A stretch of DNA of 64,000 nucleotides from Chloroflexota bacterium. GTDB lineage: Bacteria; Chloroflexota; Anaerolineae; Aggregatilineales; Phototrophicaceae. Position numbers and translations under genes: made by a program. The notes beneath the pieces were generated by a model that ran no database searches, was not told the origin of the DNA, and saw only the letters and a program-made list of their open reading frames with translations. Below, piece after piece: positions 1-59,553 of this stretch (its first letter is position 1; each line of letters begins with the position of its first letter). Location of the stretch: NCBI GenBank assembly GCA_016223085.1, contig JACRPS010000003.1, positions 124,001-188,000 of the forward strand. Reading direction: 5' to 3'.

Positions 1-86
1 AGTTCCGTGACATGCAAAAAATGATGAGCCAGATTGGCAGGGGGCGAATGCCCCGGATGCCGGGTTTCCCCGGCGCCATGCGCTAA
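1..86 (+). CDS. ffh: Signal recognition particle protein Ffh, C-terminal end (partial)
   Basis: The window opens inside a reading frame (first full codon at base 3) that ends in TAA at 84-86. The 27 visible residues are rich in Met, Arg and Gly, with the pattern M-Q-K-M-M then R-G-R-M-P and G-F-P-G-A-M-R. This is the typical tail of the M domain of Ffh, the SRP GTPase that binds signal peptides and 4.5S RNA. The next gene is rpsP, and ffh-rpsP is a common bacterial order, which supports the call. The GTPase domain lies outside the window. Confidence 0.85.
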   Translation, partial: FRDMQKMMSQIGRGRMPRMPGFPGAMR

Positions 87-101
87 CGTGTTAAATGAGA
101 C

Positions 102-129
102 GTAGGGGCACGGCATGCCGTGCCCCTGC
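102..129. repeat. Palindromic element, family A (GGCATGCC core)
   Basis: A perfect 28-bp palindrome except for its last bases. The half-site is GTAGGGGCACGGCAT and the far end reads TGCCCCTGC. It lies between ffh and rpsP, 30 bp before the rpsP start. It is the first of ten family-A copies in this window. Confidence 0.9.
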
Positions 130-158
130 CAACGATTATCTGAGGAGAAAGCAAACTC

Positions 159-554
159 ATGGTTCGTATTCGTCTTCGCCGTGTTGGCTTGAAGAAACAG
201 CCCAGCTACCGCATCGTCGTGATTGACCAGCGCGCCGCGCGGGGTGGGGATTACATCGAAAACATCGGCTTCCACAACCCCCGCACCGAACCGATCACCG
301 ATGATCTGGACGAGGCGCGCGCGCTCTACTGGTTGAGCAAGGGCGCGCAGCCAACCGAAGCGGTGATGTACATTCTCAAACGCACCGGCACCTGGGCGCG
401 GTTTGAACGCCTGCGTAAGGGTGAAGAGATGGATGCGCTCGTGGCGGAAGCTGCCGCCGCGAAGGCCGCCGCCGCGCCCGTCAGCCCGAAGACCCGCCGC
501 CCGTCGCCCGGCCCCGGCCAGGGCCGCAAGGCGGTTGAAGAAGCCGCGTCCTAG
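159..554 (+). CDS. rpsP: 30S ribosomal protein S16
   Basis: This is a structural protein of the small ribosomal subunit body. The start M-V-R-I-R-L-R-R-V-G and the segment P-S-Y-R-I-V-V-I-D are the S16 hallmark, and the core fold covers about residues 1-80. At 131 residues it is longer than the usual 80-100. The extra C-terminus is Ala-, Lys- and Pro-rich and probably disordered, as in several Chloroflexota and actinobacterial S16 proteins. The ATG at 159 follows a clear GAGGAGAAAG ribosome binding site. It begins the rpsP-khpA-rimM run. Confidence 0.97.
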   Translation: MVRIRLRRVGLKKQPSYRIVVIDQRAARGGDYIENIGFHNPRTEPITDDLDEARALYWLSKGAQPTEAVMYILKRTGTWARFERLRKGEEMDALVAEAAAAKAAAAPVSPKTRRPSPGPGQGRKAVEEAAS

Positions 555-572
555 CGCGAAAGGCTTCCCACT

Positions 573-800
573 GTGGAACAACTGATTGAGTACATCGCCA
601 AGAGCCTGGTGGATGACCCCGCCGCCGTGAAAGTCCAGCGGCGTGCATCGGGGTCTACCCTGATTCTGGAACTGCACGTCGCGCCCCAGGACACGGGGCG
701 TGTCATCGGCAAGGGCGGCCACGTGGCGAACGCGATGCGGTCGCTGCTGCGCGCCGGCGCCGACACACGCTACAACCGGGTTATCCTGAAGATCGTCTAG
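573..800 (+). CDS. khpA: KH-domain RNA-binding protein KhpA
   Basis: A 75-residue single KH domain. The GxxG-type loop is seen as R-V-I-G-K-G-G-H, followed by an A-N-A-M-R-S-L-L helix. KhpA proteins bind RNA, often as a heterodimer with KhpB/Jag, and affect ribosome maturation and cell shape; the gene sits almost invariably between rpsP and rimM, as here. The start is GTG at 573, 18 bp after rpsP. The TAG stop at 798-800 abuts the rimM ATG, so the two are probably translationally coupled. Confidence 0.95.
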   Translation: MEQLIEYIAKSLVDDPAAVKVQRRASGSTLILELHVAPQDTGRVIGKGGHVANAMRSLLRAGADTRYNRVILKIV

Positions 801-1358
801 ATGCCGCCATCGAGCAGCGCCGGGGGGCCGCCGCGCCCCCAGTATCTTCTCCTCGGCAAAATTCTGCGCCCGCATGGCGTCACGGGGGAGTTGCGTGTCC
901 ACCTGCTGACCGCCTACCCCGAACGCCTGCCGGACATGGAAACGGTCTACATCGGGCGCGACCCTGAATCGCCGGACGTGACACCCCACCTGATTGAGAG
1001 CGTGCGCTTCCATCAGGGGAATGCGCTCATCCGGCTGGCCGGTGTCACCGACCGCGATCAGGCCGACCGTTTCCGCCAGCTTTATCTGATGGTTGCCATC
1101 GCCGACGCCGTGCCGCTGGAAGACGGCGAAGTTTACCTGTTCCAGTTGATCGGCATGGCGGTACAGACGCAGGATGGTGAGACACTTGGTACCATCACTG
1201 ATGTGCTGGAAACGGGCGCGAATGACGTGTACATCGTAGATAGTCCCCGGTATGGCGAAGTCCTCATCCCGGCCACCGACCACACCATCATCAAAACCGA
1301 TGCCGCCAACCGTCTGGTGATCGTTGACCTGCCGGAAGGTCTGCTCCCCGGCAGCTAA
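801..1358 (+). CDS. rimM: Ribosome maturation factor RimM
   Basis: A 185-residue protein with the RimM N-terminal barrel (about 16-98, starting L-L-G-K-I-L-R-P-H-G-V-T-G-E-L) and a C-terminal PRC-barrel (about 104-182, with Y-L-F-Q-L-I-G-M and E-V-L-I-P-A-T). It assists 16S rRNA processing and 30S head assembly by binding S19. It starts directly after khpA with no gap. The usual next genes trmD and rplS are absent; a promoter-like sequence and dprA follow instead. Confidence 0.96.
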   Translation: MPPSSSAGGPPRPQYLLLGKILRPHGVTGELRVHLLTAYPERLPDMETVYIGRDPESPDVTPHLIESVRFHQGNALIRLAGVTDRDQADRFRQLYLMVAIADAVPLEDGEVYLFQLIGMAVQTQDGETLGTITDVLETGANDVYIVDSPRYGEVLIPATDHTIIKTDAANRLVIVDLPEGLLPGS

Positions 1359-6230: not shown

Positions 6231-6258
6231 GTAGGGACACGATATATCGTGTCCCTAC
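6231..6258. repeat. Palindromic element, family A (GATATATC core)
   Basis: A perfect 28-bp palindrome, half-site GTAGGGACACGATA, starting 4 bp after the topA stop. Confidence 0.92.
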
Positions 6259-16932: not shown

Positions 16933-16960
16933 GTAGGGACACGATATATCGTGTCCCTAC
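16933..16960. repeat. Palindromic element, family A (GATATATC core)
   Basis: Identical in sequence to the copy at 6231-6258. It lies between the iron-binding protein gene and tRNA-Arg. Confidence 0.92.
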
Positions 16961-41303: not shown

Positions 41304-41331
41304 GTAGGGACACGATACATCGTGTCCCTAC
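41304..41331. repeat. Palindromic element, family A (GATACATC core)
   Basis: Half-site GTAGGGACACGATA, with one mismatch in the core. It lies 22 bp upstream of the glnA start codon on the leader side. Confidence 0.9.
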
Positions 41332-42365: not shown

Positions 42366-43442
42366 TCAGCGCAGGCTATCCAGCACACTCAGCACGCGCT
42401 CGCGCGGCACATCTTCCACAATCACCGGCTGACCCACACCGCGCAGCAGCACAAACCGGGATCGGCCAGCCTGCCACTTTTTGTCGGTGCCCATCGCCGC
42501 GTAAATCGCATCGGCATCAAAACCTTCGATTCGAGTGGGCAGGCCAATCCGGGTGAGAATATCCTGTACGCGCCGGGGCAGCGCCGCGTCCGCCAACCCC
42601 AGTGCGTAAGACAGCCGCGCCGCCGCCAGCAGCCCAACGCCAACCGCCTCGCCGTGCGGCCACGCGTAGCCCGATACCTGCTCGATGGCATGGGCGAAGG
42701 TGTGCCCCAGGTTGAGGTGCGCGCGAACGCTGCGCTCATACGGATCCTGCTGCACCACGTCCACCTTGACCTGCACCGCCCGCCGCACCAGTTCCGCCGC
42801 ATCCTGTGGTGACACGGCGTTGCCATGTTCGTTCTCGATCAGTTGCAGCAACCCTTCATCCGCCAGCAGGCCGTGTTTAATGACCTCCGCCATCCCGCAG
42901 CGCCACTCGCGCGGGGGCAGCGTGTGCAATACATCCGGGTCAATCAGCACCGCGTCCGGCTGCTTAAACGCGCCCACCAGATTTTTCCCCTGCGGCAAAT
43001 CCACGCCGACCTTGCCGCCGACGCTCGAATCCACCATCGCCAGCAGGCTCGTCGGTACCTGCACCAGCCGCACGCCGCGCATGTAGGTCGCCGCCGCGAA
43101 GCCAACGGTATCACCCACCACGCCGCCGCCCAGCGCGATCACCGTGCCAGTGCGATCTAATCCAGCCGCCACAAAATCAGTGTAGAGTTTCGCCACCGTC
43201 GCCAGCGTTTTGTACTGCTCACCGTCGGGAATCGTGACCAGCGCCGCGTCGGGCAGCGCCCGCGCCAGCGGTTCGCCATACAGCGGCGCAAGCGTCGTGT
43301 TGGTAGCGACCACAACCGGTGAAGCGATGTAGGGGCGAACCGGCGGTTCGCCCCTACGGGCAATGCTCTGCAACACCCCCGGCTCAATCCAGATATCGTA
43401 GTCGCCGCCGGGCGCGGTTACACGGATGTGGTCTGCTGCCAC
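42366..43442 (-). CDS. aroB: 3-dehydroquinate synthase with an in-frame palindromic-element peptide
   Basis: 358 residues. It converts DAHP to 3-dehydroquinate with NAD+ and a metal ion. P-D-G-E-Q-Y-K-T (about 72-79), G-G-G-V-V-G-D-T-V-G-F-A-A-A, M-V-D-S-S-V-G-G-K-V-G-V-D and the metal ligands in E-V-I-K-H-G and G-H-T-F-A-H-A-I-E are intact. Residues 29-38 (R-R-G-E-P-P-V-R-P-Y) are encoded by a palindromic element and sit in the turn between the first helix and the next strand, where orthologues usually have a shorter linker. It overlaps aroK by 25 bp. Confidence 0.95.
   Translation of the reverse strand: MAADHIRVTAPGGDYDIWIEPGVLQSIARRGEPPVRPYIASPVVVATNTTLAPLYGEPLARALPDAALVTIPDGEQYKTLATVAKLYTDFVAAGLDRTGTVIALGGGVVGDTVGFAAATYMRGVRLVQVPTSLLAMVDSSVGGKVGVDLPQGKNLVGAFKQPDAVLIDPDVLHTLPPREWRCGMAEVIKHGLLADEGLLQLIENEHGNAVSPQDAAELVRRAVQVKVDVVQQDPYERSVRAHLNLGHTFAHAIEQVSGYAWPHGEAVGVGLLAAARLSYALGLADAALPRRVQDILTRIGLPTRIEGFDADAIYAAMGTDKKWQAGRSRFVLLRGVGQPVIVEDVPRERVLSVLDSLR
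43329..43357. repeat. Palindromic element, family B, inside aroB
   Basis: 29 bp, left arm GTAGGGGCGAACC, right arm GGTTCGCCCCTAC, core GGC: a near-perfect palindrome. It is translated on the minus strand as part of AroB. Confidence 0.93.
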
Positions 43443-47395: not shown

Positions 47396-47424
47396 GTAGG
47401 GGCGAACCGCCGGTTCGCCCCTAC
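47396..47424. repeat. Palindromic element, family B (GAACCGCCGGTTC core)
   Basis: A perfect 29-bp palindrome around a central C, half-site GTAGGGGCGAACCG. Confidence 0.92.
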
Positions 47425-57401: not shown

Positions 57402-58079
57402 ATGACCGATGCCGAACTCACCATTTTGAGTCTCGTGGCGGAAGGCCCGCGCTACGGCTACGAAATTCAGCAGATCATTGACGAACGCGGCCTGCGCGAG
57501 TGGCTGACCATCGGCTTTTCCTCCATTTATTACATCCTCAATAAACTCGAACAGCAGAACATCGTCACCAGCCGCCTTCAGCCGGAAGGCCGCGGCCCGG
57601 CGCGTAAGGTTTATTCAATTACCGAAGCCGGGCGCGGCATTCTGCAAACGGCCATCGCCGACCTGCTGCGCCAGCCGCGCGCGCTGGGATCGGGGTTTGA
57701 ACTGGGGCTGGCGAACCTGCGCGCGCTGAAGCCACGCCAGGTGTACCAGGTGCTGCGACATCACCGTAGCGACCTGCAGTACAATCTGGACGCGGTCGAA
57801 AAGGCGTGGCAGCGCCACCAGCAGGAAGGTACGGCCAATGGCGACCACATCCTGGCGTTGTACACCCACAGTATCGCCGTGATGCGCGCCGAACTGGAAT
57901 GGCTGGACACGTTTCTCAACGACTGGAAAACGCGCTACCCTGGTGTCGAGCAGGACAATCCATCCGACGACACCGACCCCAGCACCGCCGATACACGCGT
58001 CAATTCCCGCACGCAATCATCCGATCCGGTGAAAATGATCCAGCGCCTTAAGCGCCTGCCCAAACCTACGGACGAGTAA
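57402..58079 (+). CDS. PadR-family transcriptional regulator
   Basis: 225 residues from ATG 57402. The winged helix (about 1-85) has L-T-I-L-S-L-V-A-E-G-P-R-Y-G-Y-E-I-Q-Q and the wing G-R-G-P-A-R-K-V-Y-S-I-T-E-A-G-R. The C-terminal helical domain (about 95-185) is the VirR-like dimerisation part, and the last 40 residues are polar. PadR proteins repress genes for membrane exporters or phenolic stress; no target is evident here. The stop overlaps the convergent GT39 gene by 14 bp. Confidence 0.92.
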   Translation: MTDAELTILSLVAEGPRYGYEIQQIIDERGLREWLTIGFSSIYYILNKLEQQNIVTSRLQPEGRGPARKVYSITEAGRGILQTAIADLLRQPRALGSGFELGLANLRALKPRQVYQVLRHHRSDLQYNLDAVEKAWQRHQQEGTANGDHILALYTHSIAVMRAELEWLDTFLNDWKTRYPGVEQDNPSDDTDPSTADTRVNSRTQSSDPVKMIQRLKRLPKPTDE

Positions 58080-59553
58080 GCTCGTACACGTGGAAGCGGC
58101 CATCGTCGTACACCAGCGATACGCCAAAGCCGGCGGCGCGCAGCGCGTCCAGCCAGGGCTGGACTGGTTGCCCGGCAGGAACGGGGAAATAACGCGGCGC
58201 GGGGTCGGGCTGCAACCGGGCATCGGCGGCCAGCGCGGCGGGCGTGGAATGATATACGCGCCGTTTATCCGACCAGACACCCAGGTAATACCCCAGTTCC
58301 CACCCCAGCCAGTGATCGTAGATGATTGTCCCCAACGGCTTCTGATTGAGATAAGCTGCCAGCGCATCTATCCCATCATGCTGCCCTCGGTCGCCGCCGA
58401 TCGGGATACGCCCTTTCGCGGCGTCAAGTGCGGGCAAAACACCCAGTAAGCCGATAATCAGCAAAAGCATCTGTAGGGACACGATAGATCGTGTCCCTAC
58501 AGGCAAAATCCAGTCCAGCCCCCGCGCCAGCAGCAGCAGCGTCACCGGCAGCAGCGGCAGCAGATAACGGTCATACGTATTGAACGCCACCACCCAGTGC
58601 AGCAGGAAATACGCCAGCAGATAGGCCAGCAGCAGCGCGTCAAACAAGGTCTCCCGCCGGCGCGGCTGGCGAACAAGCCGCCTCAGGAACGTCAGCGCCG
58701 CGAATATCGTCAGGACTGCTGTCAGCCAGCCGTAACCGGCGAACCACTGCCCATAACTCACCCACTGCGCCAGACGCGGCAGCACTTCGTCGGCGCGTAT
58801 CAGGCGGCCCGGATCATTATTGGCGGCGGCCAGCGCCCACAGGCTGACGGATTGACCACGTGCCGCGTCCCAGGCGATCAGCAGCAGCAGGAACACCACG
58901 ATCAACGGCAGAGAAAAAAGGGCAGCAGATCGAAACAGCGCCGGTGTAGGGGAGGGTCTCAGACCCTCCCCTATAGACTCCCTTTTTGATACCCCCACTC
59001 CCCACCCCACCAGCAGCACCAGCGGCGCGTACAGCAGCGCCTGCTGCTTGCCGGCGAAGCCGAGCGCCAGCCACACTCCTGCCCATAGCGGACGCCGCGC
59101 CGCCGCCAGCCATAGTGATAACACGATAAACAGCAGCATCAGGCCATCGGTGAAAGCGGTCGCGCTGAAGGCCAGCGCAAACGGCGACAGCGCCACCAGT
59201 AGGGACACGATAGATCGTGTCCCTACGTCCTTCGGGTACAACCGCTTGGCCAGCGCGCCCATCGCGGCCACCAACAGGATACTGGCAAAGACGTTTGGCA
59301 CCCGCGCCGCGAATTCACCGGCGCGGCTCTCCAGCGTCAGCACGCCGTTGGGCAGCGACGTCACGCCAACCAGCGTCATGGATACGGCGCTGGCGTAGAT
59401 CGTCAGCGGCGTCTTGTCGAGCGCGCCATGCAGCAGCCAGTCGCCCTGCACCGCGGCGTTGCGGGCGAAGGTGGCAAACAGCGCCTCGTCAGGCTGAAAC
59501 CGCGCCTCCTGCGCCAGCGCGTGAAACCGCAGCCATGCTGCGATGAATAACAC
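58066..59553 (-). CDS. GT39/ArnT-type membrane glycosyltransferase with three in-frame palindromic elements
   Basis: 495 residues with about ten membrane helices. The first outer loop has F-Q-P-D-E-A (about 19-24), where GT39/GT83 enzymes carry their catalytic acid, and D-K-T-P-L follows. Such enzymes transfer a sugar from a lipid carrier to protein or glycolipid. The frame runs through three palindromic elements: residues 110-118 (V-G-T-R-S-I-V-S-L), 194-203 (I-G-E-G-L-R-P-S-P-T) and 352-360 (V-G-T-R-S-I-V-S-L). All three lie between helices or near their ends. The GTG start at 59553 is uncertain. Confidence 0.85.
   Translation of the reverse strand: MLFIAAWLRFHALAQEARFQPDEALFATFARNAAVQGDWLLHGALDKTPLTIYASAVSMTLVGVTSLPNGVLTLESRAGEFAARVPNVFASILLVAAMGALAKRLYPKDVGTRSIVSLLVALSPFALAFSATAFTDGLMLLFIVLSLWLAAARRPLWAGVWLALGFAGKQQALLYAPLVLLVGWGVGVSKRESIGEGLRPSPTPALFRSAALFSLPLIVVFLLLLIAWDAARGQSVSLWALAAANNDPGRLIRADEVLPRLAQWVSYGQWFAGYGWLTAVLTIFAALTFLRRLVRQPRRRETLFDALLLAYLLAYFLLHWVVAFNTYDRYLLPLLPVTLLLLARGLDWILPVGTRSIVSLQMLLLIIGLLGVLPALDAAKGRIPIGGDRGQHDGIDALAAYLNQKPLGTIIYDHWLGWELGYYLGVWSDKRRVYHSTPAALAADARLQPDPAPRYFPVPAGQPVQPWLDALRAAGFGVSLVYDDGRFHVYELTRP
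58473..58500. repeat. Palindromic element, family A, inside the GT39 gene
   Basis: A perfect 28-bp palindrome, half-site GTAGGGACACGATA with core GATAGATC broken only at one base pair. Translated on the minus strand as V-G-T-R-S-I-V-S-L. Confidence 0.93.
58946..58974. repeat. Palindromic element, family C (GGGTCTCAGACCC core), inside the GT39 gene
   Basis: 29 bp: GTAGGGGAGGGTCT then AGACCCTCCCCTAT. It has the shared outer ends but a third core type. Translated as I-G-E-G-L-R-P-S-P-T. Confidence 0.9.
59199..59226. repeat. Palindromic element, family A, inside the GT39 gene
   Basis: Identical in sequence to the copy at 58473-58500, and read in the same frame, giving the same nonapeptide about 240 residues earlier in the same protein. 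Confidence 0.93.

Follow-up and report, generated by a model that had tools for sequence, protein, structure and literature searches.

GTAGGG-ended palindromes in frame within genes of a Chloroflexota bacterium and their possible rewriting in place

Rickettsia palindromic elements (RPE) and their Wolbachia relatives are palindromes translated within unrelated genes, and RPE are known as inserts that lengthen the protein. They are also termed insertions in the available text of Di Nocera et al. (2013, PMC3733652), which describes GTAG-tagged REPs, mostly intergenic, in several phyla including Chloroflexi, and reports that in many species GTAG and CGTC REPs also lie within genes, where linkers and loops are likely to tolerate them. 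According to the same text, two Xanthomonas species carry different REPs at nearly the same position in recB, which is a precedent for a palindrome swap. REPINs, in the portion of Bertels and Rainey (2011, PMC3116915) at hand, form a within-genome population of short hairpin elements. TnpA-REP cleaves REP at CT beside the hairpin, and the spread of single REP-type palindromes is called still unsettled in the part of PMC8266576 consulted. Searches of the literature on intragenic palindromes, on this lineage and on REP conversion at fixed positions, with most subscription papers outside their coverage, found no closer report than that of Di Nocera et al. A sequence-only reading of the DNA studied here had likened three palindromes in one gene to RPE, as mobile inserts that add peptides, and knew of no such report for this lineage. 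The latter statement has to be softened in view of the Chloroflexi elements and of intragenic REPs in many bacteria other than Rickettsia (PMC3733652, available text). Intragenic REPs are already known.

The window is a 64-kb stretch of a 6.03-Mb genome (G000), a draft assembly of 37 contigs that is 97.85 % complete and 4.44 % contaminated; the genome was compared with its closest relative (G013) and with three others (G005, G006 and G007). A strict palindrome pattern, GTAGGGN10-22CCCTAC, was searched for together with the same motif reversed as a control. A detailed survey covered 1.264 Mb, consisting of the window and 1.2 Mb downstream, for palindromes of 24–36 bp with paired ends, a requirement to which asymmetric elements are invisible. 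Genes in the 1.264 Mb (1,072, coding fraction 0.857) were called by a purpose-made simple hexamer caller, a non-standard annotation in which some starts may be miscalled.

The strict pattern matched 749 times in the genome and the control 11 times, and the detailed survey returned 279 palindromes against two for its control, which rules out chance palindromes. The 279 elements were 26–31 bp in length and strongly depleted in genes, with 229 intergenic, 27 at a gene edge and 23 inside 16 genes; all 23 intragenic elements were 28 or 29 bp. The commonest 13-base arms were GTAGGGACACGAT (39 palindromes), GTAGGGGCGAACC (35) and GTAGGGGCACGGC (28). A dispersed population that also lies in frame inside genes, as had been supposed from the window, is supported. 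The window itself holds 16 palindromes, four inside predicted genes, two overlapping a gene edge and ten intergenic. Intergenic copies of family A stand at 6231–6258, 16933–16960 and 41304–41331, and one of the GTAGGGGCGAACC family at 47396–47424; another palindrome (43329–43357, minus strand) lies near the N-terminus of a predicted DHQ synthase gene whose start codon is possibly miscalled.

In the broad sense (palindromes of 20–40 bp, in high copy number and mainly intergenic) these elements are REP-like. They resemble RPE in lying in frame within unrelated genes (23 of 279), but where RPE lengthen the protein, little net gain was found at most tested sites (mean +0.6 codons), with exceptions at single sites. 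With GTAG-tagged REPs they share small size, dispersal, GTAG ends and a mostly intergenic, partly intragenic position; however, in those REPs the tag stands unpaired at one end, and a transposase, RAYT, is associated (PMC3733652, available text), whereas here GTAG pairs with CTAC (paired ends being required by the search) and no RAYT was recognised. Three PF01797 matches were found in G000, of which the two covered by RAYT/IS200 classification were IS200-type and neither was recognised as a RAYT, and the third lies in a 1043-aa ORF. They also form a within-genome population of short hairpin elements like REPINs, but REPINs are paired REPs tied to RAYT (PMC3116915, in part), and inverted pairs are not the unit here: the spacing between neighbouring palindromes had a median of 3222 bp and was <100 bp in 12 of 278 cases. 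The palindromes therefore behave like REPs but are filed neither as GTAG REPs nor as REPINs, since the unpaired tag is absent and no RAYT was recognised.

Three intragenic palindromes lie in one minus-strand gene (58066–59553) for a GT39/PMT_2-type membrane glycosyltransferase of 495 aa (PF13231, 27.3 bits against a cut-off of 26.1). If the 23 intragenic copies of the 1.264 Mb were placed randomly on coding DNA, at least three in one gene would be expected with P of about 0.005. Site 1 (59199–59226, minus strand; residues 110–119, VGTRSIVSLL; perfect arms) and site 3 (58473–58500, minus strand; residues 352–361, VGTRSIVSLQ; perfect arms, 2-nt loop) hold identical family-A 28-mers, GTAGGGACACGATAGATCGTGTCCCTAC on the plus strand. 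Site 2 (58946–58974, minus strand; residues 194–203, IGEGLRPSPT) holds a family-C 29-mer with 13+13 inner arms and a single mismatch, at its end. The first base of the element is a codon start at all three sites, and the two family-A copies, as previously noted, are read in the same frame to give V-G-T-R-S-I-V-S-L at residues 110 and 352, with I-G-E-G-L-R-P-S-P from residue 194 at site 2. Their proposed position near helix boundaries also held, in that by hydropathy the elements either separate two hydrophobic segments or coincide with the beginning of one (flanking segments 85–103 and 115–133, 171–189 and 209–227, 334–352 and 357–375). Stop-free translation is unremarkable by itself because these palindromes are open in two of their three frames.

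The GT39 protein had matches in 57 of 61 genomes (its own included), with internal stops absent from the matches listed, and dN/dS was about 0.3 against four relatives. The gene therefore appears functional, and the frameshift or pseudogene that the sequence-only reading had named as a counter-case is ruled out by these open, conserved ORFs. Its expectation that orthologues would show gaps of 9–10 residues at the three palindromes was borne out at site 2 alone, which is nine codons longer than in G005–G007 and four longer than in G013, where a decayed copy (V-G-E-A-V-R-L-S-P) is found. Site 1 is one codon longer than in G005–G007 and 15 codons shorter than in G013, and site 3 is one codon shorter than in each of G005, G006, G007 and G013. 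At site 3 the closest orthologue reads T-G-T-R-S, and GGNACACGATC is common to both genes although the orthologue has no palindrome; together with the decayed copy at site 2, this goes part of the way towards the other counter-case, the same residues without the palindrome. Among 29 GT39 orthologues, a strict scan picked up a single further palindrome, in L022, and an anchored scan picked up two, in the site 2 loop of L020 and of L022, fewer than a reading by eye.

A Pfam scan covered 11 of the 16 host genes in the 1.264 Mb. The hosts scanned include genes for DnaG primase, a fused glycyl-tRNA synthetase, an AMP-binding ligase, a heavy-metal P-type ATPase, YfhO, two more PMT_2 proteins, asparagine synthase, a GT9-WecG fusion and DHQ synthase. 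The densest host seen was the gene for a YfhO-like membrane protein of 978 aa, with five palindromes (L123:14496–17432, minus strand). Proteins with at least six hydrophobic segments make up 13 % of the coding length and contain 12 of the 23 elements (by gene, six of 16). The GTA frame was used by 17 elements, the AGG frame by five and the third frame by one with an altered end; the bias towards GTA (17 of 22) has a P value of 0.017, which is uncorrected and treats non-independent copies within one gene as separate. Outside the 1.264 Mb, an in-frame palindrome, AAVGTRHAVSLQ, was also seen in a gene for methionyl-tRNA synthetase (L055:459–486 in frame 3–1307, plus strand), shortly upstream of the KFSKS motif and in a region about 4–5 residues longer than in the solved MetRS 1rqg.

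A palindrome scan of seven orthologues in G013 (13.3 kb, two partial) detected three, with 11–13 of 13 arm pairs. All three lie within 6 nt of the G000 element and all are of another family. The G013 palindrome is at the same codon as the G000 element in the AMP-binding ligase, shares its left-hand base in the P-type ATPase, and in AsnB coincides with it to the base at one end but is displaced by 6 nt at the other. Three such coincidences have P of about 3e-6 for random starts, a figure that makes them look more striking than they are, because few loops are tolerant. Decayed copies were recognised by eye in DnaG and GT39 site 2 of G013 and in GlyQS of G005 and G006, which brings the intragenic addresses shared between genomes to six (ligase, ATPase, AsnB, DnaG, GT39 site 2 and GlyQS). 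The families found at one address have arms that differ, on both sides, at too many positions to be interconverted by a few point mutations. The dS between G000 and G013 was 0.64–0.83 (three genes), so simply inherited 28-mers should carry several changes on the G000 side. At the six shared addresses, the G000 arms have no mismatch in four cases, one in GT39 site 2 and two in GlyQS, and 14 of the 23 intragenic G000 palindromes are without arm mismatch. Neither sites without length change nor exchanges of family at several addresses, as seen here, were found described in the available text of PMC3733652.

Evidence for shared occupancy of intergenic sites is modest. In the complex I operon, one site between subunit genes holds family A in G000 and GTAGGGGCGGGTTTNNAAACCCGCCCTTAC in G005 and G006, and a site after a sigma-70 gene holds the same family in four species. 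In an objective scan, a relative had a palindrome at two of 12 sites (four of 12 with a laxer cut) versus three of 40 gaps lacking a G000 element, where reading by eye had suggested more.

The phenomenon is real and more general than the sequence-only reading could show, some of the occupied intragenic addresses seem to be old, and their palindromes appear to have been rewritten. With somewhat better than even confidence, we propose that genomic copies supply the sequence by which old resident palindromes at tolerated intragenic addresses are overwritten, and that some genuine insertions occur as well. These dispersed REP-like elements, about 28–30 bp long and of the form GTAGGG...CCCTAC, are mostly intergenic; a minority lie inside genes, where they would occupy linkers and loops between helices in which some ten residues of any kind are tolerated, translated in either open frame. 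Some copies would arrive by imprecise insertion. Several intragenic addresses would be old, and their occupant would later be overwritten by copying from other genomic copies, a conversion-like replacement of palindrome by palindrome that would alter the peptide and keep the address, the frame and the approximate length. Such copying into a resident palindrome would explain the intact arms despite high dS, the family swaps and the small length change. The presence, copy number, frame and host genes of the palindromes, the missing length gain at most tested sites and the family differences between sister species at one address are observed; the direction of copying, conversion in place of repeated insertion, the participation of an enzyme and the production of the peptides are what we infer. 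Gene conversion of REPs is reportedly the subject of a review from 1988.

The main alternative to rewriting is that palindromes insert independently, time and again, at one tolerated base, which would require loss of the earlier element every time. If rewriting is true, unrelated proteins would share evolving peptides through a process at the DNA level. A bolder form of the proposal, which we regard as tentative and rather doubtful, is that fixed addresses are maintained in genes for membrane proteins and even essential enzymes, with the occupant repeatedly overwritten by the currently abundant family and the peptides of unrelated proteins evolving in concert; conversion might then depend on no more than short ends in common and dispense with a dedicated transposase.

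It is unlikely that all intragenic copies arose by simple in-frame insertion of mobile palindromes, each a recent peptide-adding insert as proposed for RPE. The lengths between conserved flanks were compared for eight of the 16 host genes, comprising 15 of the 23 elements and one with degenerate ends (16 sites), with up to four relatives per gene (G013, G005, G006 and G007; AsnB with G013 only) and omitting rows with <10 aligned residues, such as the second site of the truncated G013 ligase. The mean change over the 57 comparisons was +0.6 codons, with 15 at zero, 31 within one codon and four at +8 or more. Control windows changed length in 11 % of 1,336 cases, indicating that the palindrome sites are variable loops. 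Gains consistent with insertion were found at GT39 site 2 (the nine codons against three relatives), in AsnB relative to palindrome-free relatives, and at YfhO sites 207, 358 and 492, where 4–10 codons were gained in 11 of 12 comparisons and a palindrome scan of the orthologues of four relatives found none. One intergenic element is missing in G013 along with about 20 further bases, and strict copies are far fewer in G005–G007, which is also as expected from insertion. However, the small mean change, the lengths of 28 or 29 bp, at which precise insertion would cause a frameshift, and the palindromes of a different family that G013 has at shared addresses all argue against insertion as the rule. 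The idea of a mobile insert that adds a peptide fits GT39 site 2, AsnB and the three sites in YfhO, and fails as a general description. Counting against rewriting, palindrome remnants in relatives were, over all sites, only weakly above control (mean 8.1 versus 7.6 of 13 arm pairs, P 0.003, with the three G013 palindromes included). The median difference in the length of intergenic gaps was +5 for 22 gaps with one palindrome versus +6 for 77 without.

Copying between palindromes is favoured over insertion alone because occupancy is often without net length change and because sister species differ in family at some addresses. Coding sites provide for this an exact ruler of frame, residues and conserved flanks that intergenic sites lack.

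Mobilisation of the palindromes as REP elements by a RAYT or IS200-type HUH transposase is improbable. It would account for the GTAG ends and for the two IS200-type genes of G000, each of which has a palindrome no more than 100 bp away. Of 388 ends (194 perfect-ended palindromes in G000), 78 % are directly flanked by C or T and only 5 % by A, a possible target or cleavage preference that may be compared with the cutting of TnpA-REP at CT (PMC8266576, in part). Nevertheless, both IS200-type genes scored below the RAYT cut-off of 80 (34.6 and 25.7) and above the IS200 cut-off, and the palindrome-rich G013 and G036 (the latter only 85 % complete) have no PF01797 match outside long ORFs (1040 and 887 aa), leaving the link with RAYT unsupported. 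In addition, short Y1 genes occur in palindrome-poor genomes, and GTAG is paired in these elements. A weak Y1_Tnp match was also seen in long ORFs (about 600–1500 aa) of many genomes (L056 and relatives).

Still less probable is that the hairpins are selected as RNA signals, such as terminators or determinants of mRNA stability, and lie inside genes incidentally. The predicted folding energy of four elements (−20 to −25 kcal/mol) and the preference of intergenic copies for convergent over divergent gaps (53 versus 24) are compatible with such a role, which would nonetheless leave unexplained one 13-base arm common to 39 of 279 palindromes, the different families at one address and the positions deep within genes. 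Assembly error, contamination or a pseudogene, for which the draft, partly contaminated state of the genome might be invoked, is very improbable given that 28-bp repeats are shorter than ordinary sequencing reads, that the ORFs are open and conserved, and that other genomes have palindromes at the same addresses.

Strict copy number ranged from 0 to 749 among 61 related genomes (749 in G000, 283 in G036, 184 in G013 and 18–28 in G005–G007), and the rich genomes, among them also G021 and G047, belonged to various genera, a pattern suggestive of bursts. When its two middle bases were left free, the family-A palindrome was found in at least 36 named stretches elsewhere, comprising at least 26 from Chloroflexota (a placing that for some names we take to be correct), at least three each from Coleofasciculus and Acetofilamentum, and at least one each from Spirochaetes, Bacteroidia, Planctomycetota and Fibrimonadaceae. 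These taxa are record labels, nearly all of metagenome bins, and some may be wrong. Protein identities to such contigs reached 68 %, which together with these matches suggests an Anaerolineae-like member of the Chloroflexota as the source of the window. The family-A pattern had no match in a collection of viral contigs, leaving viral carriage unsupported. The Coleofasciculus (Cyanobacteria) records with the family-A palindrome were L080, L090 and L102, the last without a metagenome-bin label. Within G000, a complex I stretch (G000:C12:223895-242565) has one or two palindromes, of several families, in nine of its 14 intergene gaps.
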